Assembly (NCBI GenBank): GCA_014084085.1
Contig: NPFB01000121.1
Coordinates: forward strand, 168,309-201,903
Reading direction: 5' to 3'
Origin: Hondaea fermentalgiana
Taxonomy: Eukaryota; Sar; Bigyra; Thraustochytrida; Thraustochytriidae
DNA length: 33,595 nucleotides
Below the pieces are notes generated by a model. The model saw only the letters and a program-made list of their open reading frames with translations, ran no database searches and was not told the DNA's origin. This document shows positions 3,366 to 22,422 of this stretch, piece by piece. Both the position numbers and the translations under genes were made by a program. Position 1 is the stretch's first letter; every line of letters begins with the position of its first letter.

Positions 3366-3914
3366 TCACTCTAGTCGCCTGAACGTTGTGTCGAATCGCT
3401 CCATGACGACGCGCACCGTGTGCTCCAGGTCTTCGCGCGTTTTCGGCCCCGCGACGATGATGCGGCCGCTGGAAAACAGGTTGACCTTGATGTTCTTCGT
3501 GGGGTCTGGGAGTTTGAAGGAGCAGCTTGGGAACACGGAGGGATTGTACGAGCAGCAGTCCTGGTTGGCGGCGCGAAATTTGTCCACGTCAACTTCAAAG
3601 CGGTCGAAGATTGAGAACTTCGCGACGATATTGGTCAGGACGATGTGGACAAACTCTAAGTCGAGCTTCTCCCTGAGGAATCGGAGCGCCACGAGCGCAG
3701 CGTAGTAGCTGGTACATCCCATGACGGTTGCAGTACCAGTGGAGAACAAAATAACGGTGGCATTTGGGTTTATCACCTTGAGGGTAATTGCGGAAAACTT
3801 CTTCGGCGAGTATTTTCCTGCCATCAAGAGTGAAGCAAATTCCGGAAGGGCTCTTCGCGACCGCAGTCGCACGGAGATGACATGGTTGGTGCGCGAGTAG
3901 ACGACTCTCTCCAT
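3366..3914 (-). CDS. TBP: TATA-binding protein (TBP)
   Basis: 182 residues, the size of a TBP core with almost no N-terminal extension. Both direct repeats of the saddle are visible. Repeat 1 has KKFSAITLKVINPNATVILF-STGT. Repeat 2 has NIVAKFSIFDRFEVD, then YNPSVFPSCSFKL and NLFSSGRIIVAGPKT. The F-S-S-G-R/T strand and the phenylalanines near it match the DNA-kinking region of TBPs. Repeat 1 is the more diverged. TBP binds promoter TATA boxes and recruits TFIIB, which is also encoded here (20089-21000). ATG 3914 is the first ATG; upstream codons in frame start with GTG only. A TATA-like box at 3946-3954 lies between it and the divergent gene. Confidence 0.88.
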   Translation of the reverse strand: MERVVYSRTNHVISVRLRSRRALPEFASLLMAGKYSPKKFSAITLKVINPNATVILFSTGTATVMGCTSYYAALVALRFLREKLDLEFVHIVLTNIVAKFSIFDRFEVDVDKFRAANQDCCSYNPSVFPSCSFKLPDPTKNIKVNLFSSGRIIVAGPKTREDLEHTVRVVMERFDTTFRRLE

Positions 3915-3945
3915 CGCTGTACTTGGCTCATAAGTAAACAACGAA

Positions 3946-3954
3946 ACATATATC
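3946..3954. promoter_or_regulatory. TATA-like box shared by TBP and the 555-residue gene
   Basis: ACATATATC lies 33 bases before ATG 3914 (minus) and about 28 bases before ATG 3979 (plus). It is near-palindromic and could serve both directions, including the virus's own TBP gene. Confidence 0.5.
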
Positions 3955-3978
3955 ACATCAAGGGACTGGAGCGGCGAG

Positions 3979-5646
3979 ATGGAAGGGGCTGGTCTGTTGG
4001 ATCTTGCAGCGGGGCTCTTGCGGGATACGGAGCCGGATGGGGAGGATGTGGTATTGCGCGAAATTGTCGTCGAAGAGGATGGGGCGCCAAGGCATTATAG
4101 TATGCGTTTCCTCAAGTCTGAGATGGAACGGATGTCAGGCCGCCCTTCGCGCGAAATTGATACGGCTACGGGTCCTTTAATGTCAATAGCAATTTCGTTT
4201 GCCGCAATGGCTCATATAGCTGTTCCGGGTCTTGTTCTTTATGAGGGCTATGTATTCGTTTCTAAGAGCTACGCCGAGGCAGTGCCTGCGGATTTCATTG
4301 CCGAAGCGGCTTCTGTTGCGGCGGGGTATCCGGGGGACTGGACTTCTTCTTTTCAGGCCGTGACAGACAATGAAAACGCAGAATCTTCTACAAGATCCTT
4401 GGCGTTTTCGGCGGCGTTTATGTGCTCAACGTTTGCGCATGATTTGGTTCTGCAAAAGTCCTTTGGAGCCCTGCGAGGTATCAACGCCACTGCTCTGGAT
4501 GCCCTGCTTGTTGAAATGGTGCGAACTCGAATGATTATGGAGGATCCTCTAAGTGTAAGCTTACCTGGCGACGACGGATCTTTAATTCAAAAGACCGAAA
4601 AGGAGATTGTCGCGCTCGTTGACACACGTAGCGTATCGGCTCTCGAGGAGCTGAAGGTCCTAGTCGAAGGCGCGGGACACGGGCGAGATGAATTTAGGCA
4701 TGTTGCGATGATGGGAATCTTAAATCGAGCTCGGATGTGCATGCAGAAGCAAGACCGTGCATGCAGGTCGTGGTTGGATGATTTTTATCAGTTCTGCGTT
4801 TTCGCGAAAGGTAAAAACGGGGCGGATGAACTGTTCGATGCGATTAAAAATCTCACACCCATCTCTGTTGGGCAAGAAAGTTACGTCGCGGAAGGGTTCT
4901 TCAGGCCTTATTATGACAAGTTGGCTCTTTATCCGCCCAAAGATGCGGCCCAGATCGATTCCCAGGCCGATCAAGCCATCGGTCCAATCGTAGGGGGCGA
5001 AGAACTGGAATCAGTGGCAGGACTCGCGATGTCGCACCGTCATAAAATATTTTCAGCCGTATTCATTATTGCAGGTGCGGTTCAAGTCGCGCGCAACGGC
5101 CCTTCGCGTAGAACTATGCAGACGGAAGTTCATGCGCTGGCGCTACTTTGCTGCATTATTGCTCTGGGTCGTTCATTTGATGTGGGGAAAAGGCTGCTGT
5201 TCGATAGGAAAGCGGGGCAGGATTCCATCGACGCAGTCGTGATATTTTTGATCGAAGTGGTGATGTTTATTCAGGGCGCTGCGGACGCATGGCCGGAGGA
5301 GGATGAGCAAAGAAGGATCGCGCTCAAGCACAGTGTTTGGGAGGACATGACGACCAAGGCGGATGAATGGCCGAGTGGGGCTGTGCCACTTGCCGTGCAG
5401 CTTGCAGGGCGTCCGGGGCTCGAGAATTTATCGACGAAGGGGCAAATGATTTTTGCTACCATTCGGGCCCAAACACCCGTGAGCATCCGAGATGAGGAAG
5501 TCTCCGCCGAAGTGAATAAGATCGGTAATTATTTGAATGGCAACGACGAGGGCCGGAGTATATTTACTAAGCTCCGCAACGAAATTGACGGTATAAACGT
5601 GGAGGATATTCCAGCGTGGGTGGTAGATAATCTGGAGGAGGAATGA
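3979..5646 (+). CDS. Uncharacterised 555-residue viral protein
   Basis: No family recognised. The chain is mainly alpha-helix-prone with two moderately hydrophobic stretches (about residues 70-95, MSIAISFAAMAHIAVPGLVL, and about 355-395), too mixed to call membrane segments firmly. There is no signal peptide. It begins a chain of three genes in which each stop overlaps the next start as ATGA: 3979-5646, 5643-6476, 6473-7207. A role as a virion or capsid-associated protein would fit its size and lack of enzyme motifs, but this is a guess. Codon use is less GC-rich than the 11-15 kb block. Confidence 0.75.
   Translation: MEGAGLLDLAAGLLRDTEPDGEDVVLREIVVEEDGAPRHYSMRFLKSEMERMSGRPSREIDTATGPLMSIAISFAAMAHIAVPGLVLYEGYVFVSKSYAEAVPADFIAEAASVAAGYPGDWTSSFQAVTDNENAESSTRSLAFSAAFMCSTFAHDLVLQKSFGALRGINATALDALLVEMVRTRMIMEDPLSVSLPGDDGSLIQKTEKEIVALVDTRSVSALEELKVLVEGAGHGRDEFRHVAMMGILNRARMCMQKQDRACRSWLDDFYQFCVFAKGKNGADELFDAIKNLTPISVGQESYVAEGFFRPYYDKLALYPPKDAAQIDSQADQAIGPIVGGEELESVAGLAMSHRHKIFSAVFIIAGAVQVARNGPSRRTMQTEVHALALLCCIIALGRSFDVGKRLLFDRKAGQDSIDAVVIFLIEVVMFIQGAADAWPEEDEQRRIALKHSVWEDMTTKADEWPSGAVPLAVQLAGRPGLENLSTKGQMIFATIRAQTPVSIRDEEVSAEVNKIGNYLNGNDEGRSIFTKLRNEIDGINVEDIPAWVVDNLEEE
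5592..5597 (+). promoter_or_regulatory. TATA box inside the upstream gene
   Basis: TATAAA in the last 60 bases of the 555-residue gene, 51 bases before ATG 5643. The spacing fits the other viral starts, so the second gene of the ATGA chain may have its own promoter. Confidence 0.4.
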
Positions 5647-6476
5647 ATCCTCTCCCTGGTATTCGAGAACAATTACTGGATAGGATTAGTGACCTGATGG
5701 GCAATCCCAGGCCGGTTGGGACGATATCGGGCGACGTGGTAGAAGTACTTCGTGTGGCAGCCTGGGGCTTGCAAATGCGCAAATATCGTGTTGCTTTTGC
5801 GGCTGTGGTAATTCTTATAAATCACGCGACATTGCCATACGCTGCTGAACTGGCGGACGTGAAGGACGGAGCCCTGCTGGCTCGTCTGATGTGGGATTTT
5901 GCGAAAATGCTTTACTTCCATGTCAGCGGCGTACCAAAGAGGGTCGCGTGGTATCGACGGTCCGCGCTCGTTGGGCAATTGCGCAGAACGCGGTTGGATG
6001 CTGGCGTTGCGAGCCTCGCGGAAACTGCGTTGCTCATGATGCCGGACAGAATGTTGATCGCCCAAGAGACGAGTCAATCTGTTGTGGATGGCATGAACGT
6101 TGTTAAGGTATTGGAACCAGGCGCGGAGCTCGGCAGTGCCATTGCATTCGTGCAGGTGTTTGCAATGCACTCCGCGGCTGCCCCGGTCATAATAATTCCG
6201 GAAAAGCACGCGGTGATTGTGCCTCTTGCAGAAGCCATCGCCACAAGTTTCGCCGAGACCCGGAGAAGAGGAGAAGCCTTCACCGTGTCCAAGGCCACCA
6301 AGGTTTTTTGTAAAAAAATGCTCCTTGGCCAAAGCTTGCACGTAGTCAATCACAGGGACCCCGACGACTGTGAATGTTTCCATACGTGGAAAATTTTCTT
6401 CGACAGATTGCATGCGTCCGAAGCTTTCGAAGCGAATCAAGCCCATTTTGTTCGCCAATTAAAAAAGAAGCGATGA
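5643..6476 (+). CDS. Uncharacterised 277-residue viral protein
   Basis: Starts at the ATG of an ATGA overlap with the upstream stop and ends in another ATGA overlap with the heliorhodopsin gene. No family recognised. One hydrophobic stretch near residues 48-62 (VAFAAVVILINHATL) and another near 165-200 (IAFVQVFAMHSAAAPVIII). The C-terminus is very basic (RQLKKKR). The minus-strand frame over this gene is long but is its shadow. The tight link to the 555-residue gene suggests co-expression or partner proteins. Confidence 0.72.
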   Translation: MNPLPGIREQLLDRISDLMGNPRPVGTISGDVVEVLRVAAWGLQMRKYRVAFAAVVILINHATLPYAAELADVKDGALLARLMWDFAKMLYFHVSGVPKRVAWYRRSALVGQLRRTRLDAGVASLAETALLMMPDRMLIAQETSQSVVDGMNVVKVLEPGAELGSAIAFVQVFAMHSAAAPVIIIPEKHAVIVPLAEAIATSFAETRRRGEAFTVSKATKVFCKKMLLGQSLHVVNHRDPDDCECFHTWKIFFDRLHASEAFEANQAHFVRQLKKKR

Positions 6477-7207
6477 TTGAAACGTCTTCGATGCAGCGTC
6501 TTTTTGCGGAAATGGCACTGTTGCGATTCCAGTTGTTTTGCGCGTTCGTTTTCGGCGTCTCGGCGGCTGTGCAGGTCGTGGTGGGAGGGGAACCTAGCGC
6601 TCTGCGTGTGGCTGGGGTGAACTTGACGTGGGTAAACGCCAGTTTTCTGAGCGTTGCAATGTGCTTTCATGTGGTGTATGCGGTCGCGCAAGTACTCGGC
6701 GGGGTTCTTTCCCCGCGCTTGCGTTATCTGGAGTATCTCGTGACGATGCCAGCGGTGCTTTGTTCTTTGGCGCTTCTGGTGGGTGTCACAGATCTGGGCC
6801 AACTGATCGCCATTGCAGCGCTGCAGACAGTCACCACGGCGGTGGCGTACGTTGATGCGAACGCGAGTCGCGGGGCGTGTTGCGCGCCTCGCGGCGCCGT
6901 CGCTGGCAGCCCTGTGTTGCTCGCGCTGGCCTTCGCCACGTACGCGGCCGAGTGGGTGATCATCATGCGGTCGCTCGTGTTGCGAGCGGCGCAAGGCTCT
7001 CTCGAGGGCTGGGTCGTTGGTCTTTCGTTGAGTCTTTTTTTCATCAGCACGCTGTACGGGGCCAACCAGGCGTATTTTCTGGCACTGGCCCGCATGCACG
7101 GCCGGGAAATTACCAAGCTGGACGAGCTTGAAATGGACGGAGCCTTCCATGCGCTTTCGCTGCTCACCAAGGGGGTGTTGGTCTGGGTGCCACTTGCGCT
7201 GGCGTGA
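6473..7207 (+). CDS. Heliorhodopsin
   Basis: 244 residues, seven hydrophobic helices. Helix 3 begins RLRYLEYLV, matching the family's R-W-x-E-Y-S; E87 corresponds to the Schiff-base counterion glutamate. Next comes the family's LxGxxDLxxLIA pattern (LLVGVTDLGQLIAIAAL, about residues 101-117). The last helix, ALSLLTKGVLVW, carries K233 where heliorhodopsins bind retinal (family S-L-x-A-K-S-A-L-A-W). Heliorhodopsins are light-sensing retinal proteins with inverted topology and are known in viruses of algae and in mirusviruses; one viral member conducts protons. Both key residues are intact, so it should bind retinal. Start at 6473 is the ATGA overlap; the frame extends upstream to 6374 but that part overlaps the previous gene. 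Confidence 0.88.
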   Translation: MIETSSMQRLFAEMALLRFQLFCAFVFGVSAAVQVVVGGEPSALRVAGVNLTWVNASFLSVAMCFHVVYAVAQVLGGVLSPRLRYLEYLVTMPAVLCSLALLVGVTDLGQLIAIAALQTVTTAVAYVDANASRGACCAPRGAVAGSPVLLALAFATYAAEWVIIMRSLVLRAAQGSLEGWVVGLSLSLFFISTLYGANQAYFLALARMHGREITKLDELEMDGAFHALSLLTKGVLVWVPLALA

Positions 7208-7213
7208 CATATG
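7208..7213 (+). promoter_or_regulatory. TATA-like box after heliorhodopsin
   Basis: CATATG directly after the heliorhodopsin stop, about 38 bases before ATG 7249, the usual spacing in this region. Confidence 0.35.
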
Positions 7214-7248
7214 AAGGAAGCGCTTTGCGTTAACGGGCGACTGGTACG

Positions 7249-7674
7249 ATGCAAACGTCGCGTCACAGTGCTAATTTTATAGACCCACACAGTCTCGCGA
7301 CTGAGGTGGTTCTGCTTCTTTCGCAGACAACGTTTTACCTTCTGCTCTTCGTGGTGCTCAAGCGTGTCCTGGTGGACCAGCATGGTATGATGAGTTCTCG
7401 CGAAGCGCTGCGTCGCAACCGGGTGCAGCTCGCGGCTATTTATTTTGCCATATTCACGCTCGTCGTGATACTTCTCCTGCCGCTGCACTCGTACGAGTAC
7501 GTGGACGTCGTGGCCGCGTCGACGCTCGTGGTGGCGGCTGGCTTGTTGATCCGCGAAGTACGAGCATTGCCGGCGCGGGATCTCGTCGCCCCGCCCCCGG
7601 CCCCGGCTCCGGCTCGAAAAGAAGAGCCTGCTGAAGCGCTGGGGCCGGTCGCGGCGGCGCGATTCAACTTTTGA
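7249..7674 (+). CDS. Small membrane protein (141 residues)
   Basis: Two or three hydrophobic segments: about residues 18-40 (VVLLLSQTTFYLLLFVVL), 60-80 (YFAIFTLVVILLLPL) and 84-100 (VVAASTLVVAAGLLI). The C-terminal 40 residues are A/P-rich with an APAPAR stretch. No family recognised. It follows the heliorhodopsin gene by 41 bases. Its last 235 bases overlap the convergent frame at 7440-8138; both frames look protein-like, which is unusual for this compact region. Confidence 0.6.
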   Translation: MQTSRHSANFIDPHSLATEVVLLLSQTTFYLLLFVVLKRVLVDQHGMMSSREALRRNRVQLAAIYFAIFTLVVILLLPLHSYEYVDVVAASTLVVAAGLLIREVRALPARDLVAPPPAPAPARKEEPAEALGPVAAARFNF

Positions 7675-8138
7675 GCGAGCGCCCTGGGGATGGTCCTGCG
7701 CAGTTGCGCCCTGAGCGCGCCGCCCAGGCCGGCGCCGTCGAGGGCCGCTCGGGACACAGGCCCTTCGCTCCGCAGCGTGCGAGTGCAGAGCGCGTGATCC
7801 CATACTTGCACGCGCCAGTCAACTTCCCCGGGCGCCACGTGCCCCGCGCGCGCAGCACTGACGCACAGTGCAAAAGAGGACTCGCGATCGAGCCCAAAGG
7901 CGCACAACTCAACGCTTCCTCCGTTGTGCCGCAGCTCGTGGTGCTCGAGTGCGTTGCGAAATAGATCTTCACCCAAAATCAAGAGCGCCGTGTGTAGTTC
8001 TTCGTAAACAGTCGAGCACAAGGAACGTTCGCTGGCACCGGGGTCCAGCAAAACGCACGCGCGCACAGAAAGGAGCGCGCGGGATCGCGCCGCGACGGAC
8101 TGCGCGAAACGCCGGGCCGTGCCGGATTCGGCGCGCAT
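7440..8138 (-). CDS. Uncharacterised protein, long 3' overlap with convergent gene
   Basis: 232 residues if translated to its stop. The first ~155 residues look like a real soluble domain (for example VYEELHTALLILGEDLFRN). The last ~75, antisense to the neighbouring gene, are A/R/T/S-rich and look like a shadow. Either the protein has a low-complexity tail or a frameshift near 7670 extended it. ATG 8138 is first in frame, with a TATAAC-like stretch only ~14 bases upstream, closer than for other genes. No family recognised. Confidence 0.5.
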   Translation of the reverse strand: MRAESGTARRFAQSVAARSRALLSVRACVLLDPGASERSLCSTVYEELHTALLILGEDLFRNALEHHELRHNGGSVELCAFGLDRESSFALCVSAARAGHVAPGEVDWRVQVWDHALCTRTLRSEGPVSRAALDGAGLGGALRAQLRRTIPRALAQKLNRAAATGPSASAGSSFRAGAGAGGGATRSRAGNARTSRINKPAATTSVDAATTSTYSYECSGRRSITTSVNMAK

Positions 8139-8201
8139 TGATAACGCTGTATAACTTTGATTTGAGATTTTTTTAGGCAGAGGGATGCAAGTCAGGATTG
8201 C

Positions 8202-8780
8202 TCAAATATTGTTATTGTTTATTTCGCGTTTGCTCGCGCCGTTGAAGGCGTATCGGAGGCCGTTCGCCGTGCGACGAGCGCGGGCTGAGTTTTTGTCGAA
8301 CGAGAATGGAAATCTTGGTTTCTCCTTGGCGCCTGTTCGGGCGGGTAGAGTTGTGCGTTCGGGACTCACCCACACTGGTCGATTTATCAAAAAAGTCTCC
8401 GGAAAGTACTCCCACTTCGGAAATCGGTCGCGGAGATGTAGAATCGTGATCATGATCTCCTCTGCGCGTGACGGTGGAAACATCTTGAGCTTTGGCATAG
8501 AAACAGTCACAACATCTTCTCGGGGGACGTCCCAGACTTTCAGTTTCGCTACCTCGAGTTTTACCTTCCTTTCTGAAAAAGAATTGATTCCGGCTTCATA
8601 AGAGGCGCGAGCGAGCACTCCGCCAGCTCCCAGCTCGCCGCCATCCACCTGCTTTTGGATTTTGTTCGCATTGATGTCTTGCTGATCATCCCGGGCTAAG
8701 ATTTCTTTTACGTCGATTCTTTTTGGGGGGCGCCCCCGATGCAATTGTCTCATAGCCGCACACAAAGTATTGATTGACAT
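8202..8780 (-). CDS. Uncharacterised 192-residue protein
   Basis: Charged soluble protein with no motif I recognise; a central segment KVKLEVAKLKVWDVPREDVV suggests beta structure. The C-terminal ~50 residues are basic and low in complexity, ending INNNNI. It follows the 253-residue acidic gene by 5 bases on the same strand, so the two may be expressed together. An AATAAA on the minus strand (about 8218-8223) lies just before the stop. The plus-strand frame at 8185-8601 is its shadow. Confidence 0.6.
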   Translation of the reverse strand: MSINTLCAAMRQLHRGRPPKRIDVKEILARDDQQDINANKIQKQVDGGELGAGGVLARASYEAGINSFSERKVKLEVAKLKVWDVPREDVVTVSMPKLKMFPPSRAEEIMITILHLRDRFPKWEYFPETFLINRPVWVSPERTTLPARTGAKEKPRFPFSFDKNSARARRTANGLRYAFNGASKREINNNNI

Positions 8781-8785
8781 TTCAT

Positions 8786-9547: not shown

Positions 9548-9590
9548 ATTTCCGTCTCGACTTTGCTCGACAAGACAAAGAGTGATCCAA

Positions 9591-9597
9591 AATATAG
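9591..9597 (-). promoter_or_regulatory. TATA-like box of the acidic protein gene
   Basis: AATATAG lies 45 bases before ATG 9547 (minus). It is only 10 bases from ATG 9607 (plus), which is more likely served by TGCATATTT at 9543-9551. Confidence 0.4.
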
Positions 9598-9606
9598 TGA
9601 GTAAAA

Positions 9607-10597: not shown

Positions 10598-10623
10598 TGT
10601 GCTTAACCCTCGCGCAGCGTCTT

Positions 10624-11391
10624 TTAGATACGCAGACGTCGCAGGAAGGGATTGCTTGAGTAACCTACGAACAGCACGAGATCCCACGTGACCATGGTCC
10701 CGGCGATAACCCAGCGGACGTTCTCCGCAACCCACCGCAGGGCCGCCTTGGAGCGCAGGCGGAACTCGACGCGCACCGCAGTCTCCCCAGGGACTGCTTG
10801 CGGCAACGAGCGCGCCAGGTACGACACCAGGCAGGCCTGTGTTCCCGTGATGGGCCCTGTGGCGTTGGCGAGAAGCCCCGCGCAGCGCGCAATGGCGTTG
10901 CAGTTGGCTTCGGTCGCTCGGAGCCCGCGCAGCAGGCAGTGATGGGCCTCGCGGAAGTATTCCGCGCCGGCGCGGATGGGCACTGCCGCGGCGTAGTAAA
11001 TCTCGTCCTCGCGGCCGAACGCCCAGGCGGCGTCTGCGTCCGGGAGACGTTCGACGTAGCTGCCCGTCCCCTCGACCAGCGCCCCGGTGTGGCCCGTGAA
11101 GGTGCCGGTGGTGGCCTTGCGGAGCAACACATGCGTGAGCAGCCCGTCGCTGAACACGAAGCCTTGGAAGGAGCTCTGCAGGCTGTATCTCTGGAGGACT
11201 TGCTCGCGGCTCAGCTCCGCGTAATCATCGACGACGGCGCCCGCCTCGAACATGGAAACCTCGTACGCGTCGCTGCTCTCGGTCAGGACGCCGGCATTGG
11301 GGATGATCCCAGTCGGGTAGGTGAAGTAGAACGCCGTCTCCTCGAATGCAAGCGCGGCGCGCAAGAGCAAAAATGAGACCAAGACGCGCAT
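10624..11391 (-). CDS. Signal-peptide type I membrane protein (255 residues)
   Basis: A clear signal peptide (MRVLVSFLLLRAALAF) is followed by a ~215-residue ectodomain with four or five cysteines and an N-glycosylation sequon (NAT). A C-terminal membrane helix (WVIAGTMVTWDLVLFVGY) and a short basic tail (FLRRLRI) end the chain. This predicts a secretory-route envelope or surface protein. ATG 11391 is set by the signal peptide and a TATA-like box 46 bases upstream; the longer frame is antisense to the divergent gene. Part of the ectodomain (VVDDYAELSREQVL) looks faintly like the EGF-like protein at 14780-15667 (TVEDYASISSSVL). No family recognised. Confidence 0.72.
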   Translation of the reverse strand: MRVLVSFLLLRAALAFEETAFYFTYPTGIIPNAGVLTESSDAYEVSMFEAGAVVDDYAELSREQVLQRYSLQSSFQGFVFSDGLLTHVLLRKATTGTFTGHTGALVEGTGSYVERLPDADAAWAFGREDEIYYAAAVPIRAGAEYFREAHHCLLRGLRATEANCNAIARCAGLLANATGPITGTQACLVSYLARSLPQAVPGETAVRVEFRLRSKAALRWVAENVRWVIAGTMVTWDLVLFVGYSSNPFLRRLRI

Positions 11392-11435
11392 CGCGAACCC
11401 CCCTTCGCGCCTCTTTCCCAGCTCGTGCAAAGATT

Positions 11436-11442
11436 GTATATG
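11436..11442. promoter_or_regulatory. TATA-like box shared by divergent genes
   Basis: GTATATG is centred in the 95-base gap between ATG 11391 (minus, 46 bases away) and ATG 11487 (plus, 45 bases away). It is the clearest symmetrical case in the window. Confidence 0.55.
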
Positions 11443-11486
11443 GGAGAAAGCATGTGGAGGCATGTGAAGAGAGGGTGGCATTGGCC

Positions 11487-14400
11487 ATGAGCACTGGGAA
11501 CGTCTTGGCGGACTCGACGCCGGCCCAGCTCTTCGGCGCGGTGGTCGTGGCCGGGGCGGCGTGCATTGCCTTGAACGATGGCATGGACATGTGGTACCGC
11601 GCGCTGAATGCCAGGTCGCTCGCCGATGGCATGGCGCTCGTGGACGACCTGCTGCGCGCGGCTGCGGCGGTCTATGTCCTGATGTCCAGCGTGGGCACGC
11701 CATTCGACGCCCCAGGCACCGCGCGGGGCGCCGTGCTCTATTGCACTTCCCTCTTGGCGGCCGCGACGAGCGACCTGCTGGCCGACCCGCAGCTGCTCTT
11801 CGCGGAGTTCAAAACGTTCACGCTGGCGACAATATCTCTGGACGCGTCGATCGTCGAACTCGTCGGCGAGGAAGGGGAGCTGGCGGCGCTCAGTGCGACG
11901 GCTGCGACGCGCTTTGGGGAGTACTACGTGTACGCATTCTACCTGTCCAAGTGGGCGCTGGCCGTCGCCGCTGCGGCTCATTTGGTCGCGCGACAAATTC
12001 CCTTGGCAGCGCTGGGGGCGCGGCGTATCTGGCACCGCGGGCTGCGCCGCGAACTGGCGGGTCGTCTCCTGCTGCTGGGCGCTGTGGGGCTCAACGGCTG
12101 GGCCGCCTTCGAGCACTTGGTGCGCCCCACAGTCCTGAGCTCCGAGGCGCAATTACGCGCGCACCAGATTTCCTCGCTGGGCATTCGCGAGACGCTTGTC
12201 GATGCAGCGGGCGTGACGAATGCCACGCAGGCCAAGGAGATACTGTCGCGGCTGGGGGAGGACCTGATCTCCCCGGCATTCATGCGCGTGGCCGACGAGC
12301 AGCTGCGGTGGGCGACCGTCGCGGTGCTCGTGCTGCTGGCGGGGGCGGTCGCGGCAGTGCACCCGGTGCGCGCGGCGGCGCTGCCTCCGCTGGTGCTGCT
12401 GTCCGCGTACAACCTCGTGGCGCTGGAGGCCAGCACTTCGCAGGAGGAGCTGTACGCGGCGTTGCTGGTCGTGGGGGCGGTCGCTGCCCTGCTGGCGGCG
12501 GCGTCTTCGCTGCGGGCCGTGGCTCTGGATGCCCTTGTGCGCGGGCTGCCGGCGCTGCTGTACAGAGCGGGCTTGTTGGCGATGCTACTGGCGGTGCCCC
12601 TGCTCTTTATGGGGTACTCTCACCCGTGGGTAGACTTCACGGTGCGACCCGTGTTCAGCGTCGATATCGCCGTCATCCAGTTGAACACGGCAGTTGCTCG
12701 CATCGACAGCATGGTGGACAGCGTGGCGCAGGCTGTGGTGAAGATTAACCCATGCATTCAAGCCTTCGCAGTAGACCCCGACAAGTCTCAGAGCACACCC
12801 GACACAGACCGCGACGTCGACGCTAACATGGCCGCGCAGCGGCGCGAGATGGTTAAGCAGTGCATGATAGACTGCAATGAGTGCCTGAACATCGAGGGCG
12901 GCTGGTACGTCGACGGCGCTAGCACCTGGTGGCGTCAGGACAAGTGCGAGGAGATGGTGCAGCGGGAGAGGGACCAGAACGCCGACATCAAAGACGAAGT
13001 ATCCAGCGACACCGAGGAGGCCGCCAAGGGCAAGAACCTCGCGTTTGTCACCAACACAACAGTCTACGAGGTGAACGAGCACTGCGAGGGCAAAAAGTGT
13101 GCCGTATTCACGGCACTCGCCGCGGCGCTGCTAGTGCTGGCCAAGGTTCCCTTCTTTGGCACCGTCGCCGTGGTCGTCAAAGAGATCATGACAATCGCGT
13201 TCAAGTTCGTCCGCTTCGCACTGCGCATGTTCAAAAAGCTGCGTCGCTTTTACAACCGCAACAAGAAGCTGCAGAAAATCCGCAAGCGCATGCGCGACCT
13301 GCGTGTGAACGCTGTCCGGTCCGTGCTGTCTCCCTCCGTCAGCAAGTCGTTGCTGTGGATCATGCTCCCCGTACTCGTGAGCGGAGCCGTGGCGCTTACT
13401 TTGATCATGCTCCGGCGGCGCACCATGCGAGAGCCGCCGCTGGCCCCGCGGCTGCTCCTGGCGCTGCGCGTCGGCGTGGGACTGGCCCTGCCTCTGGCGG
13501 CGGCGGAGGTGATCTCCTGGGTCGTCCTCACTTATTACCCAGTCATCGTTGGCAATCTGCTGGCAGTGCTGCCGGCGGACTTCGTCGAGTATGACTTCAG
13601 CGTGAACGTGGGCCTGCGGGCGACCAAGGCGGCTTACCTGCTCTCGGCGGCAGGCAACGCCAGCCTCTTCCTGAGCGCGGTGCTGTACGCCTTTGGCGGC
13701 ACCCTGCAGGCCCTAGTCGGGCTGGCGGCGCGCGCCGGGGCGGCGCTGTCCGGCCGCCCGCTCCCCATCCGCATGAGCGCCGCGCGCGCTGCCGACCCGT
13801 TGCGGGGAACGCTCCGCGCGGCGTGCACCTTCGGCGACGTGCGGCGAGCCCTGGCGGCGCCGCCGCGCGCCCTGAGCACTGCGGCGCGGCGGCGGCGCGT
13901 CTCCTGGGCCGTGCGCGCGCGCGAGATCGCCGCGTCGCTGCTCGACTGGGAGGCTCGCTACTTGCAGCCTCTGCTCTTCAGTGCCGTTGCTGTCCCGGTG
14001 CTGTACTATAACTCGGCCGAAAGCGAATACATTGTGTTCAAGTACAGGACCAAGCAAGACCTCGCGGAGACCGCCGGCGAGCTGGCCGACCTGAACCGCG
14101 CCGTGATCGACGCCGTGGACACCGACGATGAGTTCGAAGAGCTAAATTGCGGCCCCATCGCCAAGATCGCCGAGGTGGCCCTGGCCGCGATGCTCAACCT
14201 TCGCGCGGTCTTCATCGCTCCCTACCGCGTAGTTATGGAGAAGCTGGCCGACGCGCTGAGCGGGCTGGAGGAGGCCCTCGAGCGGCTCGTCGAGCTCGCC
14301 GACTCGGTCGCCGTCGCTGCAATTCCCGACGCCGCAACGTTGCACAATCTTCTTTTCGCCGTTCCGGTCGGGATCACACTGGCCTTCGGCCTCGCCTGGG

Positions 14401-14753
14401 TCCTCAGCGTGGTGGGCGGGGACATCTCGAGCGTGCCCGTGCTGCGGCGCTTCCTCGGTAGCGGCGACCTCTCGCTGGACGAGGCCATGGCCCCGGTCGC
14501 GTCCGCCGCGACCATTCTGTCCATCTCCATGATCCTCACGCACGTGACCATCTCCGCGATGCTCGAAACCATCAGCGAGAGCGACTTCGGCTTTTTCCAG
14601 TTCGAGGTCTCGATCGGTCAGAAGTACTATGGGGTGATGGGCGCACACATTGCGAACCTTATCACCATTGCCTCCTACTACGTCAATCTCCAGGTCCCGG
14701 TCGCCTCGGCCGGCGACGCGCAAGTCGCAAACCCTAACCCTAGGAGAAAATAA
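11487..14753 (+). CDS. Giant polytopic membrane protein (1088 residues)
   Basis: Roughly 14-17 hydrophobic segments. About nine lie in the first 410 residues. A Cys-rich acidic loop of ~150 residues follows (cysteine pairs in CMIDCNEC and CEGKKC). Next come a long hydrophobic stretch and a very basic segment (KKLRRFYNRNKKLQKIRKR) that should face the inside. More helices follow, then an amphipathic region (about 905-1000) with heptad-like leucines between two helices, and two or three final helices. I recognise no transporter or fusion signature. It is the largest protein of the viral part and lies inside the block of envelope-type genes. ATG 11487 is chosen over 11346 because the upstream part overlaps the divergent gene and lies before the TATA-like box. 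The C-terminus NPNPRRK comes from AACCCTAACCCTAGG. Confidence 0.8.
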   Translation: MSTGNVLADSTPAQLFGAVVVAGAACIALNDGMDMWYRALNARSLADGMALVDDLLRAAAAVYVLMSSVGTPFDAPGTARGAVLYCTSLLAAATSDLLADPQLLFAEFKTFTLATISLDASIVELVGEEGELAALSATAATRFGEYYVYAFYLSKWALAVAAAAHLVARQIPLAALGARRIWHRGLRRELAGRLLLLGAVGLNGWAAFEHLVRPTVLSSEAQLRAHQISSLGIRETLVDAAGVTNATQAKEILSRLGEDLISPAFMRVADEQLRWATVAVLVLLAGAVAAVHPVRAAALPPLVLLSAYNLVALEASTSQEELYAALLVVGAVAALLAAASSLRAVALDALVRGLPALLYRAGLLAMLLAVPLLFMGYSHPWVDFTVRPVFSVDIAVIQLNTAVARIDSMVDSVAQAVVKINPCIQAFAVDPDKSQSTPDTDRDVDANMAAQRREMVKQCMIDCNECLNIEGGWYVDGASTWWRQDKCEEMVQRERDQNADIKDEVSSDTEEAAKGKNLAFVTNTTVYEVNEHCEGKKCAVFTALAAALLVLAKVPFFGTVAVVVKEIMTIAFKFVRFALRMFKKLRRFYNRNKKLQKIRKRMRDLRVNAVRSVLSPSVSKSLLWIMLPVLVSGAVALTLIMLRRRTMREPPLAPRLLLALRVGVGLALPLAAAEVISWVVLTYYPVIVGNLLAVLPADFVEYDFSVNVGLRATKAAYLLSAAGNASLFLSAVLYAFGGTLQALVGLAARAGAALSGRPLPIRMSAARAADPLRGTLRAACTFGDVRRALAAPPRALSTAARRRRVSWAVRAREIAASLLDWEARYLQPLLFSAVAVPVLYYNSAESEYIVFKYRTKQDLAETAGELADLNRAVIDAVDTDDEFEELNCGPIAKIAEVALAAMLNLRAVFIAPYRVVMEKLADALSGLEEALERLVELADSVAVAAIPDAATLHNLLFAVPVGITLAFGLAWVLSVVGGDISSVPVLRRFLGSGDLSLDEAMAPVASAATILSISMILTHVTISAMLETISESDFGFFQFEVSIGQKYYGVMGAHIANLITIASYYVNLQVPVASAGDAQVANPNPRRK

Positions 14754-14779
14754 TTTTATTCTGTTTTATTCTGGAACTA
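14754..14779. terminator. Convergent polyadenylation region
   Basis: The 26-base gap between two convergent stops contains TTTTATT twice, which reads AATAAAA twice on the minus strand. The poly(A) signal of the EGF-like gene probably lies here. Confidence 0.45.
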
Positions 14780-15667: not shown

Positions 15668-16625
15668 GTCTGGGTTTTCCTTGCTGTCCCCTTGGGGAAA
15701 ATTGCATTTATGGGCACGGACGAGAATTTGCCCTTGACCATGGAGTGCGACGCGGGCTCCTCGACTTCGCCATCTGTGTCTTCGTCCGAGTCGTACTTTT
15801 CGGCGTGCAAGTCGACGTCTACGAACTCCCCCGCATCCTCCTTTGCGGGCGGCAACTCGAGGTCCACTGCTACGTTCCGCACGCGCGGCCGGCGACGGAC
15901 TCTGCACTGGGCGCCGACCAGCATGCCGCAAGCGCCGCCGGCGAGGGCGCCGAGGAGGAACGGCGTGTTGTGCACAATCGCGTGGGCCGCGCGAAAGACG
16001 ACCGCGAAAGACACGGCCAGGGACAGCGCCAGCACTGCAAAGCTCACCAGAGCAGCGTGTGATTCGCGCAGACAGGCGTTGCTCGCGGCGCGCAGCACTG
16101 CGGCGGTGACCGCCGACGGCACGCTTCCCATGGCGAGCGACGCGGGGATCCCGTGGAACGTGTGCCCGGCCGTGCCGAAGCAGGCTGTGCCGTTCGCCGT
16201 CTCCACGCACGTGGCTGCCGGCGCTTCGCAGCGTACATCGAGCAGCGGGGCTGGGAAGGTGGTCGAGACGCCCTGCTCGTAGCTGTGCACCAGCACGTTG
16301 AATTGCTCAAACGGCTCGTCGATGCTGCTCATGTCGCGGGTCTCCAAGTGATACATGACGTCGCGCGGCAGCGGGGAGAGTGGGTTCATGAACTCGCTGG
16401 AGGCCGCCGCACCGACGATCGAAAAGGTGTAACCTGTGCACGACAACTCGGCGTTGTCCCTCGAGCTGAGCACGCACAGGTGGTGCTTGCACACGGCCAT
16501 CTCGCGCACGTCTGTGAACTCGTACGGGGCTAGGCCCAGCGTGCCGTCCAGGGGGAGCACAGCATTGTGCTCGCGTCGACATTCCACGTGCAGTTGGTGA
16601 CTTCGTTCACGACTTTGGTGATCAT
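15664..16625 (-). CDS. 8-cysteine membrane protein B, broken by a one-base frame change
   Basis: Paralog of the protein at 9607-10455: eight cysteines in the same order, including VCKHHLC, LSCTG, ATCVE and ACFG, then two or more hydrophobic segments and an acidic tail. The N-terminal 31 codons (ATG 16625, MITKVVNEVTNCTWNVDAST) are in one frame and end at a TAG (16530-16532). The rest is in another frame, open to the stop at 15664. The match to the paralog crosses from one frame to the other near a run of five G (16551-16555, C on the minus strand). One more base in that run would rejoin the frames. It may be a true mutation, a sequencing error or a programmed -1 shift. The stop overlaps the EGF-like gene start as ATGA. 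Confidence 0.7.
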
Positions 16626-16658
16626 CGTCTTCTCCCCCACCCGACCAATCCGCTTTCC

Positions 16659-16666
16659 ATAATATG
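16659..16666 (-). promoter_or_regulatory. TATA-like box between paralog B and the exonuclease
   Basis: ATAATATG lies 34 bases before ATG 16625 (minus) and partly overlaps the exonuclease ATG (16664). Confidence 0.35.
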
Positions 16667-17620
16667 CAAGATCCCGTCATCGTCGTCTTTGACCTCGAGA
16701 CGACGGGCTTTGACCCCATGCCGCTCCTGTCGCCCATGCACCGCATCCTGCAAATCTGCGCCATGCGCTTAGACACGGGGGCGTTCTTCAGCACAATCGT
16801 GGACCCGGAGATGCGCGTGCCGCCGCCCAGTCGAGCCATTCATCGCGTCGGGGACGAGGAAACGAAGGGGGCGCCGCGGCTGCAAGCGGCGATGCGTGCG
16901 CTGGAGCAAGAGCTGGCGCTAGGGGACGCGCCTTGTGTCATGGTGGCGCACAACTGCTACTTCTTCGACGAACTGATCCTGCGCAAAGAGTGTCTGCGAC
17001 TGGGGGCAGCGCTGCCGAGCCATGTGGCGTTCTGGGATTCCCTGCCCTACATGCGCGCCAAGTTCCCCCTCATCGGGCAGTGGGGCCTTTCGGCTTTGCA
17101 CGAGCACTTTTTTGGCGAACCCGTGCCCAATGCGCATCGCGCCGACGCCGATGTGCGCGCCCTTGCGCGAATATTGCAGCACGCCGCGCCACAGCTTTCT
17201 CGCGAGATTGCAGCCAACCCACGAAAACAGCCCCGCGCGCTGACGGACCTGCGCGGAGTGGGGCCCGGACGCGCGCGGATGATCACTCGGGCCACTGGGG
17301 TGCGTTTCGTGCAGGATTTGCGGGCGCATTTTGGCACGTGTCCTCGGGCCTTTGACCGCTTCCTTTGCGAGCACCTGCGCATGCGTGCTCGCTCTGACCG
17401 CGCGCTTTTGGTGGCGCAAGTTTTTGGAATCCCGCCGTGGGACCTCGAGGCCGTAGAGGAGCGAATGGGAGCTGCCCCCCCAGCTCTCTGCGGATGCGCA
17501 GGCGACGTCGACCTTTACGTGTTTTTTGCTTTTGGCAACGGAGGCTCGCTGACACGCGAGTCGTCCGCCGCCTTTGTGCGTGGTCTTCGGCGCACGCTTT
17601 CCCGCGCGCGAGAATGGTAA
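16664..17620 (+). CDS. DEDDh 3'-5' exonuclease with helix-hairpin-helix
   Basis: 318 residues. The exonuclease motifs are D10-L-E12-T (Exo I), VAHNCYFFD102 (Exo II) and H158-x4-D163 (Exo III, HRADAD), so all catalytic residues of the DEDDh (DnaQ/RNase T) family are present. The family removes nucleotides from 3' ends using two metal ions. After the domain, about residues 193-210, LRGVGPGRARMI looks like a helix-hairpin-helix DNA-binding motif. The C-terminal ~100 residues are unassigned. It could proofread or trim DNA ends in viral replication or repair. Stop and convergent protease stop are 16 bases apart. Confidence 0.85.
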   Translation: MQDPVIVVFDLETTGFDPMPLLSPMHRILQICAMRLDTGAFFSTIVDPEMRVPPPSRAIHRVGDEETKGAPRLQAAMRALEQELALGDAPCVMVAHNCYFFDELILRKECLRLGAALPSHVAFWDSLPYMRAKFPLIGQWGLSALHEHFFGEPVPNAHRADADVRALARILQHAAPQLSREIAANPRKQPRALTDLRGVGPGRARMITRATGVRFVQDLRAHFGTCPRAFDRFLCEHLRMRARSDRALLVAQVFGIPPWDLEAVEERMGAAPPALCGCAGDVDLYVFFAFGNGGSLTRESSAAFVRGLRRTLSRAREW

Positions 17621-17636
17621 ACAGGGATAAGATGGC

Positions 17637-18842
17637 TTATTTCTTTTTATGCACGGGATAGTAACAGTAAAGTTTGCCGGCAAAGTCTATGTTCTGCATT
17701 GCCATGGCATGGCATGCACCTGGTCTGACGTCGCCCTCCACCTTCAGCTGGCTTTTCAAACACGGCAACGCCGTTTGTAGCACTCGGTCCTTTGTGCCGG
17801 TGACGATGTACACCTTCGATTTCCCGGTGATCGATCGGTCAATGCGGCCCCGGTAGTCTCTGAAAACGATCCCCCCATTCCCGTCGGAATCAACGGAGCG
17901 GAGGAAATACCCTTTGCGAGCCTTGTCGCGAATGCAGACGTCGCCGCGCGGGTTTACGATGTGTTTAATCTCCTCGTGCACCTGAAACTTATCATCAACG
18001 GGACGAATCAACACCACCTCACTGTACGGCTTGTCAGCGACCGCCTTATTTTGGTATCCGTGTTTGATGGTCATCATCGCCGTGGCAAGAAAAAGGGCGT
18101 CCCGAAATCCACTAATGTTGATTGGAAAAAAGTCGTTTTCCGAGGGGTGCTTGTTCTTTGACATTAGAAGAAGTGCGAAGCGGAGGCAGAACACGCCACA
18201 CGAAATGCCGTCGTCTTGGCCTCCGTAGTCAATCGGAGTTGCTACTTTTTCTTGCAGGTTGCTCAGCTCTAAAACTCGAAGGTATGATTCAGGTAATTCT
18301 TTGGCGGGCACCTTCTTGGGTCGAGGGCCCATTGGGTCGTAAAAACGCATCTCTCCCTCCTTTGAGAAAGAGAGAAATGTGAAGTGAGAGTTATCCAAGC
18401 CGATCATGCAGGCGGTCTTTCCTTCAGCATGGATCTTCTTGACGCTTTGTTCATGGGGGAAGGTTACCATCCGATATTCACTGTCCTTGAAAACTTCGTT
18501 CAAAATCAGGCCGAACGTGTACACAGACGTGTTGGTGAGCAGAATTTCATTTGATAAGTCTCTGAAAAACACGCGGTTCAATTTAAAAATGCGGCACTCG
18601 GGGTCTATGCCACGTAGGGCGCCCTGAATTGGAAAATCATTCTTCGCATTTGCCTTGGTGTCTCCTTTTAAGGCTTTCTTGATGGCATTCCAGCTAGTGT
18701 CTGTCTTGGTGGAAATAAACGTCAAGGTCACCTTACACCTAGCATAGTATGTTCGTTCGATTTCCGAGAGTTGTCCATTGTGTTCGGCTACTCTCTCGAG
18801 GAGGACTTGTGCGTCTTGTATAGGCTCCCCTCTCCTGAACAT
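17637..18842 (-). CDS. Ulp1-like cysteine protease 1 (C48/adenain fold)
   Basis: 401 residues. The catalytic residues are H153 (NSHFTFLSF), D169 (RFYDPMG), Q209 and C215 (GGQDDGISCGVF). The order H-D-Q-C is that of the C48 family, which cuts SUMO-like proteins; related enzymes process viral structural proteins. About 150 residues follow the catalytic domain. This C-terminal domain is shared with the neighbouring protease (GDVCIRDKARKGYFLRSVD against ADVLVYYQNVNKWFLAYVD), so the two arose by duplication. TATAAA on the minus strand at 18878-18883 lies 36 bases upstream of the start. Confidence 0.85.
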   Translation of the reverse strand: MFRRGEPIQDAQVLLERVAEHNGQLSEIERTYYARCKVTLTFISTKTDTSWNAIKKALKGDTKANAKNDFPIQGALRGIDPECRIFKLNRVFFRDLSNEILLTNTSVYTFGLILNEVFKDSEYRMVTFPHEQSVKKIHAEGKTACMIGLDNSHFTFLSFSKEGEMRFYDPMGPRPKKVPAKELPESYLRVLELSNLQEKVATPIDYGGQDDGISCGVFCLRFALLLMSKNKHPSENDFFPINISGFRDALFLATAMMTIKHGYQNKAVADKPYSEVVLIRPVDDKFQVHEEIKHIVNPRGDVCIRDKARKGYFLRSVDSDGNGGIVFRDYRGRIDRSITGKSKVYIVTGTKDRVLQTALPCLKSQLKVEGDVRPGACHAMAMQNIDFAGKLYCYYPVHKKK

Positions 18843-18877
18843 TGCGATTTGCTTTGAGATAAATCACTTGAAATCAA

Positions 18878-18883
18878 TTTATA
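18878..18883 (-). promoter_or_regulatory. TATA box of Ulp1-like protease 1
   Basis: TATAAA on the minus strand, 36 bases before ATG 18842, in the 45-base gap between the two protease genes. Confidence 0.5.
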
Positions 18884-18887
18884 GAGT

Positions 18888-20054
18888 TCAAGGTTTCGAG
18901 AATTTCTTTCTATACTCTTTGAGTGAAGTCTTGTAGAGCAAGTGAATAGCTCGATGCCCTTCCTCCGCTTCATACTTTTCGTGCAGCCTTTTGCACTCCC
19001 CGGGCGCGATTTTGTCCAAAATCTCAAGTTGGAGCAGGGTAATTGATCTTGCGACGACGATTTCATCTTCTTTCACTCGAACCACTCTCGCGAAAGCAAG
19101 AGGTTCCGGCCCAGGAGATTCCACTGTTTCACCGAACTGGTCGAAAAGAATGCCGTCGTCTCCGGCCTTGTCCACGTAAGCCAGGAACCATTTATTTACA
19201 TTTTGATAATAGACGAGGACGTCGGCGTATCGGGGAATTTGCTTGTCCTCTTCATTACCATCGGGAGTAACCCTGATCTGATCATTCCACCGAGGGGGGC
19301 GCCGTGTCACCTCGGTCCCGATGACGTTTCCATGTGTGACCATTCTCATGGTGGCGATCAAAAGGCGCTCGCGAAAATGCTGAATCGTAAATGTTGACTC
19401 TTCGAAAGCTAGGTCATCTTTGGTGGGCCATTTGTTGTTTTTCATTATAAAGCAAATGGCCCGAATCACGAAGACGCCGCACGAATAACCATCATGTTGG
19501 TGGCCAAGGAGGTGTTGCGTTAAGTTGTCTTTCGGAATATTGTCTGCATCAAGAAGGAACTCCGCGGGCCCAGGAATTTTTCCATTCATGGAGTTGTAGT
19601 ACAAGGCTTCGGCTTTCTTGTCGGCGGGAATCACAAGCAGGCTCCAGTGCACAGCGTGAAGAACGGCAATGCACACATTCTTCGTTTCCGCGAGGTTGAG
19701 TATGTCATGTAGATCATGCATTTGATCGTGCACAACGCACATCCTGAAAGAACTCTCCCGAAAGAGGTCATTAAAAATATAGGAAATCTCCTCGAGCGTC
19801 TTATTGCTCAATAGCTCTGTTCCGTACGCCAGATCTCGGAGCGTCGATGCATCGATGGTGTATTCATTGAGACCAATGTTTCGTTGCAGATAACCCGCCA
19901 TGGGGAGATCATCATTCCTTTGGGGCTGATTTTTGTTTCGAGAAACATACTTCGCGAAGAATTTTGCCTCTTGCAGGAACCTCTTTTCGCGTTCCGTAAA
20001 GTCTTCATCTTCTTTAGTGTTGAGTTTGGCGAATAATTGCTTGGCGGGGTCCAT
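18888..20054 (-). CDS. Ulp1-like cysteine protease 2 (C48/adenain fold)
   Basis: 388 residues. Catalytic H136 (HAVHWSLLVI), Q186 and C192 (GHQHDGYSCGVF) are present. Where the family has Asp, this protein has Asn (N154, LYYNSMNG). Asparagine in that place can still support activity in some relatives, but it sets this copy apart from its neighbour. The C-terminal domain matches that of protease 1. The tandem arrangement, with 45 bases between genes, suggests duplication and then divergence. A TATAAG stretch (20089-20094, minus) lies 35-40 bases upstream. Likely substrates, host ubiquitin-like conjugates or viral precursors, cannot be told from sequence. Confidence 0.83.
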   Translation of the reverse strand: MDPAKQLFAKLNTKEDEDFTEREKRFLQEAKFFAKYVSRNKNQPQRNDDLPMAGYLQRNIGLNEYTIDASTLRDLAYGTELLSNKTLEEISYIFNDLFRESSFRMCVVHDQMHDLHDILNLAETKNVCIAVLHAVHWSLLVIPADKKAEALYYNSMNGKIPGPAEFLLDADNIPKDNLTQHLLGHQHDGYSCGVFVIRAICFIMKNNKWPTKDDLAFEESTFTIQHFRERLLIATMRMVTHGNVIGTEVTRRPPRWNDQIRVTPDGNEEDKQIPRYADVLVYYQNVNKWFLAYVDKAGDDGILFDQFGETVESPGPEPLAFARVVRVKEDEIVVARSITLLQLEILDKIAPGECKRLHEKYEAEEGHRAIHLLYKTSLKEYRKKFSKP

Positions 20055-20088
20055 GGGTCCTTCTCAGCGGTGGTTAGGTAAAATCAAC

Positions 20089-21000
20089 TTATACAAAATC
20101 AAACTTTCGACGGCCGTCGACGTAGGCGAGTAGGGTTACGCGCGAGGTGCCAGTGGCTGCTGCTATTTCTCCTAGGCGACTGCGGTCTTTGCCGAGGTGA
20201 TTGAACAAAGTGAGCGCCAATACAGTCACGTTGCCCACCGACCCGTTGCGCTTGATGTTTTCGCGGGTGCGTGCACCAATCTCCTTCTCGTCGGCAAAGG
20301 ACAGGCCGAGGCGCGTCCGCGCTTGAGATAGATTGGTCGCGGCGATGGAGCGTTGGGAGATGTCGGTGAGGGCGCAAAACTTGGCCACTTGTTTGGACAG
20401 CTTTTTAACGCCGGTGGCGGCTTCGATTTCCGACAGCGTCACTGGGTGGCCGAGTTCGTTCCGCACCACCACAATGGCAGCGGCGACCATGGCCTGGCTC
20501 CCTCGACACGTAAATACATGGGGTGAGTTGCGGATGATTGTCGACACGCGGTTGTACACGCGCTCGCTCGAGTCTGTGGCGTCGACGAAGCGGCGGAGGC
20601 GTGTGAAGAGGCGCCGCTCGCGCACATCGTCTGGAAAAACGCGGTCCATCAAGCGCTGGTCCGGCGACGGGCCTCTGTGCTCGGCGTGCGTGTCGACGTG
20701 GGCGGCGTGGTGAGCTGGTATGGAAGGCGGCGCGGTGCGCAATTTGGGGCGCCTGTGGGGTCCGCTCTGCCTGTGGTTGGGGGCATTCGTTGTCATGGTC
20801 CCGCTCCCGCGGCTAGTGGAGTACCAGGCTTGCTGAGGGAGCGCTGGGCGTGCTCGATGTAGAATGCCGCAGAAAAAGTTCCTGACGATGACGCCGCAGA
20901 GGGTGCAGATGAGAGTGTCTGTGCGGGTATCGTGGACATATTGGTTTTTTGCGATGCGGCAATTCTCGCACTCGAGTGTTGCAATGCTGGGTCGTGGCAT
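20089..21000 (-). CDS. TFIIB: Transcription factor IIB (TFIIB)
   Basis: 303 residues. The N-terminal zinc ribbon is CENC (about residues 10-13) and CTLCG (about 32-36). A ~70-residue low-complexity H/P/R-rich linker replaces the usual B-reader/B-linker. Two cyclin-like repeats follow: first about residues 115-200 (DRVFPDDVRERRLFTRL onward, SQAMVAAAIVVV), then about 205-300 (LSEIEAATGVKKLSKQV and LGEIAAATGTSRVTLLAYV). TFIIB bridges TBP and RNA polymerase II at promoters. Its partner TBP is encoded at 3366-3914. ATG 21000 is the first ATG before the zinc ribbon. Confidence 0.85.
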   Translation of the reverse strand: MPRPSIATLECENCRIAKNQYVHDTRTDTLICTLCGVIVRNFFCGILHRARPALPQQAWYSTSRGSGTMTTNAPNHRQSGPHRRPKLRTAPPSIPAHHAAHVDTHAEHRGPSPDQRLMDRVFPDDVRERRLFTRLRRFVDATDSSERVYNRVSTIIRNSPHVFTCRGSQAMVAAAIVVVRNELGHPVTLSEIEAATGVKKLSKQVAKFCALTDISQRSIAATNLSQARTRLGLSFADEKEIGARTRENIKRNGSVGNVTVLALTLFNHLGKDRSRLGEIAAATGTSRVTLLAYVDGRRKFDFV

Positions 21001-22413: not shown

Positions 22414-22422
22414 ATCATATAA
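22414..22422. promoter_or_regulatory. TATA-like box between dNMP kinase and membrane gene
   Basis: ATCATATAA, about 50-57 bases before ATG 22365 (minus). It is too close to ATG 22427 (plus) to serve that start unless a later ATG is used. Confidence 0.4.

Follow-up and report, generated by a model that had tools for sequence, protein, structure and literature searches.

TATA-type boxes, a TATA-binding protein and a TFIIB-like gene in a probable mirusvirus stretch joined to Hondaea fermentalgiana DNA

The DNA analysed here, called the window below, is a stretch of 33,595 bp from the thraustochytrid Hondaea fermentalgiana (contig C26, NPFB01000121.1, positions 168309-201903; assembly of 36.0 Mb in 238 contigs). 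Approximately its first 23.3 kb are viral and the remainder is host DNA; the viral region is best read as a mirusvirus stretch joined to the DNA of H. fermentalgiana, and it extends beyond the segment 3366-21000 named in a first-pass annotation. This left part, up to ~23.3 kb, encodes a TATA-binding protein (TBP; 3366..3914, minus strand), a heliorhodopsin, an exonuclease, a nucleotide kinase and many proteins without a family match, as well as a TFIIB-like protein (20089..21000, minus strand). The first-pass annotation had suggested that the virus reads its own compact promoters, often in both directions. Sequence statistics speak strongly for compact TATA-type promoters in the window and more weakly for them on a second viral contig, C178. 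The interpretation we favour, with moderate confidence, is that these are mirusvirus promoters which a virus-specific TBP-TFIIB pair would read, in some cases in two directions.

Start codons of 20 window genes were picked by eye; one of the genes (7440-8138, minus strand) is doubtful and overlaps 7249-7674. TATA occurs at −65 to −20 from the start codon of 11 of the 20, as compared with 5.4% of random windows, and dinucleotide shuffles of the same upstream regions averaged 1.7 such genes and never reached 11 in 2000 trials. The first-pass annotation, which proposed to judge the boxes against shuffled sequence, was therefore right about their enrichment but not about their presence before nearly every gene. 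The box is found at −30 in one case and between −38 and −56 in the ten others. Because the starts had been picked by eye, mechanically defined open reading frames (ORFs) were also used, the TATA positions being shifted round the region 2000 times. Five of 20 ORFs had TATA before the first ATG (0.82 expected) and 10 of 20 when any in-frame ATG within 80 codons was allowed (1.9 expected); no shift reached either count. Boxes were further scored on the forward strand with a JASPAR-type TBP matrix. Twelve of the 20 window genes exceeded the background 95th percentile at −28 to −62, against a single gene of the 20 in any of the three windows placed farther out, and mechanical first ATGs gave 6/20 at −28 to −62. 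The top words upstream of window genes are TATA, ATAT and ATATG rather than AATT or TTAA.

These counts bear on the possibility that the boxes have no promoter role and merely reflect spacers that are AT-rich within a GC-rich genome. The motif obtained de novo by expectation-maximization (EM) is partly plain A/T, as such an origin would predict, but shuffles that preserve the dinucleotides of the same upstreams fall short of the observed count, the leading window words are not AATT or TTAA, and the signal is confined to −28 to −62. The box at 5592 moreover lies within coding sequence. We regard this explanation as very improbable.

Several boxes can be assigned to a single gene. The box at 5592..5595 (plus strand, −51 from the gene starting at 5643) is inside the 3′ end of gene 3979-5646. 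The boxes of genes 17637-18842 (18880..18883, −41) and 18888-20054 (20090..20093, −39), both on the minus strand, read TATAAATTGA and TATAAGTTGA, respectively. Two others depend on starts picked by hand: 22418..22421 (minus strand) is at −56 of the nucleotide kinase gene if its ATG is at 22365, and 22825..22828 (plus strand) is at −50 of a gene whose ATG would be at 22875. The places at which the first-pass annotation had put boxes do carry TATA (3949, 11437, 1301, 5592 and 22825).

Four short gaps between divergent window genes hold one box apiece. The TATA-type box at 3946..3954 is near the middle of the 64 bp that separate the TBP gene (ATG 3914) from the gene at 3979, and the box at 11436..11442 is also near the middle of its gap (95 bp between 11391 on the minus and 11487 on the plus strand), about 50 bp from each ATG, with starts picked by hand. 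The distances of the box at 1299..1304 fit if the divergent genes start at 1244 (minus) and 1340 (plus), again picked by hand. In the fourth gap, between 9547 (minus) and 9607 (plus), the box at 9591..9597 is at −49 of the minus-strand gene, whose start was picked by hand, and at −17 it is too close to the plus-strand gene. A hand list of gaps of at most 140 bp, which uses hand-picked starts, shows one TATA/ATAT cluster in 8 of 10 gaps, the ten including one boxless C178 gap; as tested, with that gap left out, the count was 8 of 9 (null 1.2; reached in 0/5000 trials). The gaps were recounted mechanically, taking ORFs of at least 150 amino acids from their first ATG and requiring exactly one cluster. 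The only window gap (TBP/3979) qualifies, which alone is not significant; C178 has 4 of 6 gaps with exactly one cluster (null mean 0.81; 21/5000 trials reach it) and the host 0 of 1. With ORFs from 100 amino acids, the counts are 4 of 8 for C178 (39/5000) and 0 of 5 for the host. Single boxes are present in all four window gaps and in 4 of the 6 on C178; three of the window gaps depend on hand-picked starts, a point against the favoured interpretation. The single boxes fit use in two directions without proving it. A special palindromy of divergent-gap boxes is not supported: they are no more symmetric than other boxes (p 0.15).

The TATA signal recurs on C178 (54085 bases, same assembly). In five of its 39 mechanical ORFs the first ATG is preceded by TATA, always at −40 to −46, with 0.98 expected and 3/2000 shifts reaching the count. 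The TBP matrix matches upstream of 10/39 ORFs at −28 to −62 (p 1.6e-5), and of 2/39 and 0/39 in the two farthest windows. Three words (ATAT, CATA and ATATG) remain significant after correction in the window as well as on C178, and no host word does. CTAA words, present at −28 to −62 upstream of 13/39 C178 ORFs, are possibly a second promoter class. Host ORFs of at least 200 amino acids gave 0/27 matrix matches at −28 to −62 and 3/27 at −70 to −104 (p 0.15), and the shift test found TATA before 1/28 host ORFs (1.17 expected), without excess. TATA density is 0.68 per kb in the host and 1.22 per kb in the viral part, that is 0.34 and 0.71 of the expectation from base composition; neither value is below the trinucleotide prediction (host 70 found, 56.6 expected; viral 27 found, 20.9 expected). 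Past 23301 in the window, TATA occurs only once.

The viral TBP has 182 amino acids, starts at ATG 3914 and comprises both lobes (PF00352, E 2.2e-23), so that the complete TBP announced by the first-pass annotation is confirmed. Two Pfam stretches lie in the one ORF, the genome search gave two places, and matches to TBP chains of the PDB reach E 1.2e-15. A large protein search gave two other relatives at E ≤1e-3, one of them an Aurantiochytrium transcriptome entry. The protein is 56% identical to one related sequence (P0002), 55% to the Aurantiochytrium entry (P0003) and 23% to the host TBP. Its residues were compared in an alignment with yeast TBP and the host TBP encoded on C184, using yeast numbering and the roles usually assigned to the DNA-kinking Phe, the TATA contacts and the TFIIB-binding Glu. 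The DNA-kinking Phe 99, 116, 190 and 207 are retained, as are the minor-groove pair Asn 69 and 159 and Val 71 and 161. TATA contacts are changed at six positions (L114 to I, V122 to T, T124 to M, L205 to N, V213 to I, T215 to A), and the TFIIB-binding Glu pair (human 284/286) is gone (E186 to N, E188 to S). None of these eight positions is altered in the host TBP, which has both Glu. At L114, V122, T124, L205, V213, T215, E186 and E188, the residues of P0002 are I, S, M, N, I, V, N and A; P0003 covers six of the eight, with M, N, V, A, N and T, and V213 is its only unchanged one. Both relatives are therefore also altered at T124, T215, L205, E186 and E188.

The conservation of this protein is relevant to the view that the region is a decayed endogenous remnant whose promoters and TBP are disused fossils. 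Such a history would suit a single viral stretch that is contiguous with host genes in the window and in which no capsid gene was found. It accords poorly with the length of the open frames, with key TBP residues kept across three sequences that are 55-56% identical, and with a homologous TBP in an Aurantiochytrium transcriptome entry; we consider it unlikely.

Loss of the Glu pair does not place the protein outside the TBP family since, according to PMC7221094, this C-lobe pair contacts TFIIB and varies among viral TBPs. In the same source, a TFIIB-like protein accompanies the TBP-like sequence in almost every virus that has one, poxviruses excepted. The gene at 20089-21000 likely encodes a divergent TFIIB of 303 amino acids, with a putative zinc ribbon at about residues 11-41, a cyclin-repeat-like segment at ~161-200 and a second one, placed by alignment only, at ~240-290. 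The Cys spacing fits a zinc ribbon, which scores 5.8 bits in the TFIIB profile described next and E 0.11 with PF08271, short of the family cut-off. The first cyclin repeat is a partial match (4.9 bits) and the second appears in a forced alignment only. A profile built from two TFIIB rows gives a co-linear match of 12.1 bits that spans the zinc ribbon and a portion of cyclin repeat 1, the best of 2000 shuffles of the protein scoring 7.2. The TFIIB claimed by the first-pass annotation thus stands above shuffled sequence in this profile but passes no family cut-off. In the alignment, human R169, which faces the TBP Glu, falls on Asn, and T176 stays Thr; the former would look like a change matched to the loss of the TBP Glu, a correspondence that depends on the alignment. 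The single-sequence structure model is unusable (pLDDT 38.5). A six-frame search of the genome itself, window included, with PF00382 found no TFIIB. PF08271 found a TFIIB-like host ORF at C170:126134-126253, with a zinc ribbon and one repeat recognised by eye.

Taken together, these features suggest the following scheme. Many viral genes would use a compact core promoter consisting of one TATA-type box of ~8 bp, located in most cases 38-56 bp upstream of the ATG, and transcripts starting 25-30 bp past the box would have a leader of ~8-31 nt. A single box would probably serve both genes in some of the short divergent gaps. The virus-encoded TBP would bind and kink the box and, being without the Glu for a host-type TFIIB, would most likely partner with the virus's own divergent TFIIB; the pair would then recruit either host RNA polymerase II or a viral polymerase, and direction would be set by other sequence or by nothing. 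Reading of the boxes by the virus's own TBP and TFIIB is a fair inference because the TBP keeps the DNA-kinking residues and has lost those that hold a host-type TFIIB. A bolder version sees an autonomous and largely orientation-neutral mirusvirus promoter code in a TATA-poor host. A TBP with a re-specified DNA surface (central Thr to Met/Ala, Leu to Asn) would pair only with the viral TFIIB, one box would fire two divergent genes, and the virus would be insulated from host control of initiation; this version is rather doubtful.

It is possible, if less convincing to us than reading by the viral pair, that the boxes are ordinary TATA promoters served by host TBP, TFIID and RNA polymerase II, and that the viral TBP and TFIIB do another task, for instance at TATA-less genes. 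The host TBP has the canonical residues and can be expected to bind TATA. Intron-rich mirusvirus orders lack an RNA polymerase of their own (PMC12768974), and RPB1/RPB2-type searches gave no match on C26 or C178. They gave two clear copies of each subunit, fewer than the three host polymerases need, and thus decide neither for nor against a viral polymerase. The capsid gene, described below, has no box, which would also agree with host-read TATA promoters. The tested host ORFs, however, show no TATA excess at the box position (0/27 by matrix, 1/28 by TATA); host TATA amounts to 0.34 of the base-composition expectation, though it is not below the trinucleotide prediction (70 versus 56.6). A viral TBP that keeps its DNA-kinking residues should, furthermore, bind such DNA. 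A piece resembling an RNA polymerase large subunit, with four in-frame stops, was noted at C35:24435-25328.

A number of points weigh against reading of the boxes by a viral TBP-TFIIB pair. The host TBP could read TATA boxes as well, and the TFIIB-like protein found no relative in the large protein search. Nine of the 20 window genes are without TATA at −65 to −20; so are, before the first ATG, 34 of the 39 C178 ORFs, some of which are surely spurious, and the capsid gene. These boxless genes make another promoter class likely. On C178 the any-ATG test is weak (6/39 versus 2.07 expected, 39/2000 shifts reaching it), the matrix also shows some excess at −70 to −104 (6/39, p 0.012), TATA is outside the five top words, among which CTAA ranks first, and two of the six divergent gaps are boxless. 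The EM motif is AT-rich (TATATAAA) with scattered positions and is not decisive. Fifteen hand-picked single-gene boxes are oriented 7 forward to 8 reverse overall, unlike classical TATA boxes, and lean opposite ways in the window (6 forward to 2 reverse) and on C178 (1 to 6). Finally, the window and the capsid gene sit on separate contigs.

The other genes of the viral part were examined for family matches. The divergent partner of TBP (3979..5646, plus strand) is a 555-amino-acid protein of unknown family that occurs at one place in the genome. The heliorhodopsin is encoded at 6473..7207 (plus strand; PF18761, E 2e-7). The divergent pair consists of 10624..11391 (minus strand), whose product has a signal-peptide-like start by eye, and 11487..14753 (plus strand), encoding 1088 amino acids with many hydrophobic stretches by eye and without a Pfam match. 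Further along are a DnaQ/RNase T type exonuclease (16664..17620, plus strand; PF00929, E 7.7e-20; phrog_192, E 5.3e-32), a protein without a Pfam match (17637..18842, minus strand), a protein weakly resembling Ulp1-type peptidases (18888..20054, minus strand; PF02902, E 0.94; NCBIfam Ulp1-family model, E 0.001) and a deoxynucleoside monophosphate kinase (21754..22365, minus strand; phrog_139, E 3e-39; PF21448, E 2.4e-5, below its cut-off). The host side (24830..33529) has a long proline-rich ORF, an amidohydrolase and a Bin3-type methyltransferase. Tetranucleotide usage in 2.5-kb blocks is closer to C178 than to the host in 9 of the 12 blocks starting at 1-22001; the block at 24001 is marginally closer to C178 and all four blocks from 26001 are closer to the host. 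The surrounding contig is partly N. A 15-base tandem repeat of 10.7 copies occupies window positions 1-161, within an open frame of the minus strand that continues past the left edge.

Searches for virion-module genes (capsid, terminase, portal) gave no match among 28 window ORFs with Pfam, host side included, nor among 10 ORFs with PHROGs. C178, which encodes the deposited H. fermentalgiana protein FCC1311_048532, carries an 863-amino-acid capsid protein (P0004); among the 7994 candidates scored, 21 relatives were obtained, their sources being jgi, lgn and ena. Its structure model (pLDDT 73, pTM 0.72) has as best PDB match the major capsid protein of human herpesvirus 6B (E 5.7e-9) and, in the BFVD viral library, that of Lake sturgeon herpesvirus (E 3.7e-14). 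TM-scores by query length are modest, 0.3-0.5 among the herpesvirus matches listed, with one of 0.25. On the evidence of this model, C178 encodes a herpes-like major capsid protein of the HK97 type, outside the window. C178 also has a second heliorhodopsin, a stronger match than the window copy, and ten of its ORFs that were scanned include a Pox_A22-type protein and a dCMP/cytidine-type deaminase. The mirusvirus pattern, according to PMC10132985 and PMC12768974, is that of a marine protist in which heliorhodopsin occurs along with a herpes-like capsid; both papers name TBP and heliorhodopsin as core functions of these viruses. Both are present in the window, and they, the relatives of its TBP and the promoter signal shared with C178 are why the mirusvirus label is extended to it. 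Scans of a viral contig collection with the TBP, the TFIIB, a 1095-amino-acid protein, the TBP alignment, the capsid candidate, a heliorhodopsin and the capsid alignment returned no relatives. A family B DNA polymerase, perhaps viral, lies at C194:134823-137273 in one open frame of ~1430 amino acids; a ~375-amino-acid, intein-like insert splits its YGDTDS motif.

In mirusviruses a capsid of herpes type occurs alongside informational genes that giant viruses also have, and the virus studied here may come equipped to switch on its own genes. Such a viral initiation system is directly testable, given a defined box, a TBP to match it and a TFIIB candidate, and mirusvirus production in culture has been reported for the neighbouring genus Aurantiochytrium (PMC12911909). 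The changes on the TATA- and TFIIB-contact surfaces of TBP can be viewed as a natural experiment in the independence of TBP from its host.

With the Mirusviricota the system shares TBP and heliorhodopsin (PMC12768974, PMC10132985), the herpes-like capsid protein, here on C178, and a thraustochytrid host (PMC12911909). What the window adds is a TATA promoter signature together with a gene for a TFIIB-like protein; neither "promoter" nor "TFIIB" appears in the main text of PMC12768974 or of PMC10132985. The literature searched, to which some key papers do not belong, yielded no report of a promoter motif or a TFIIB in mirusviruses, and in two mirusvirus-related papers TFIIB figures as a nucleocytovirus marker. 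Hondaea and mirusvirus are named together in one paper of that literature, where mirusvirus appears a single time, in a citation of Collier; an earlier report of a Hondaea mirusvirus is possible. AT-rich promoter boxes are known in nucleocytoplasmic large DNA viruses, such as the "MEGA-box" TATATAAAATTGA (PMC5294985). The likeness lies in an AT-rich box shortly before the ATG, and the boxes of the genes starting at 18842 and 20054 resemble it; the capsid lineage here is, in contrast, herpes-like and divergent gaps carry single boxes ("bidirectional" and "palindrom" are absent from the main text of PMC5294985). The late TATT promoters of beta- and gammaherpesviruses are likewise served by a viral TBP-type factor, a TBP mimic such as ORF24 of Kaposi's sarcoma-associated herpesvirus (KSHV); here the factor is a true two-lobe TBP homologue accompanied by a TFIIB-like protein. 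A further parallel is with the TBP-TFIIB pairs proposed for double-stranded DNA viruses and called orthogonal systems in PMC7221094, in which the virus likewise encodes both proteins and the TBP positions that hold TFIIB are changed. The putative pair described here differs in coming with a located promoter box. Viral TBP-TFIIB pairs have thus already been proposed for other viruses, and the mirusvirus case, with its located box, is a variant of them.

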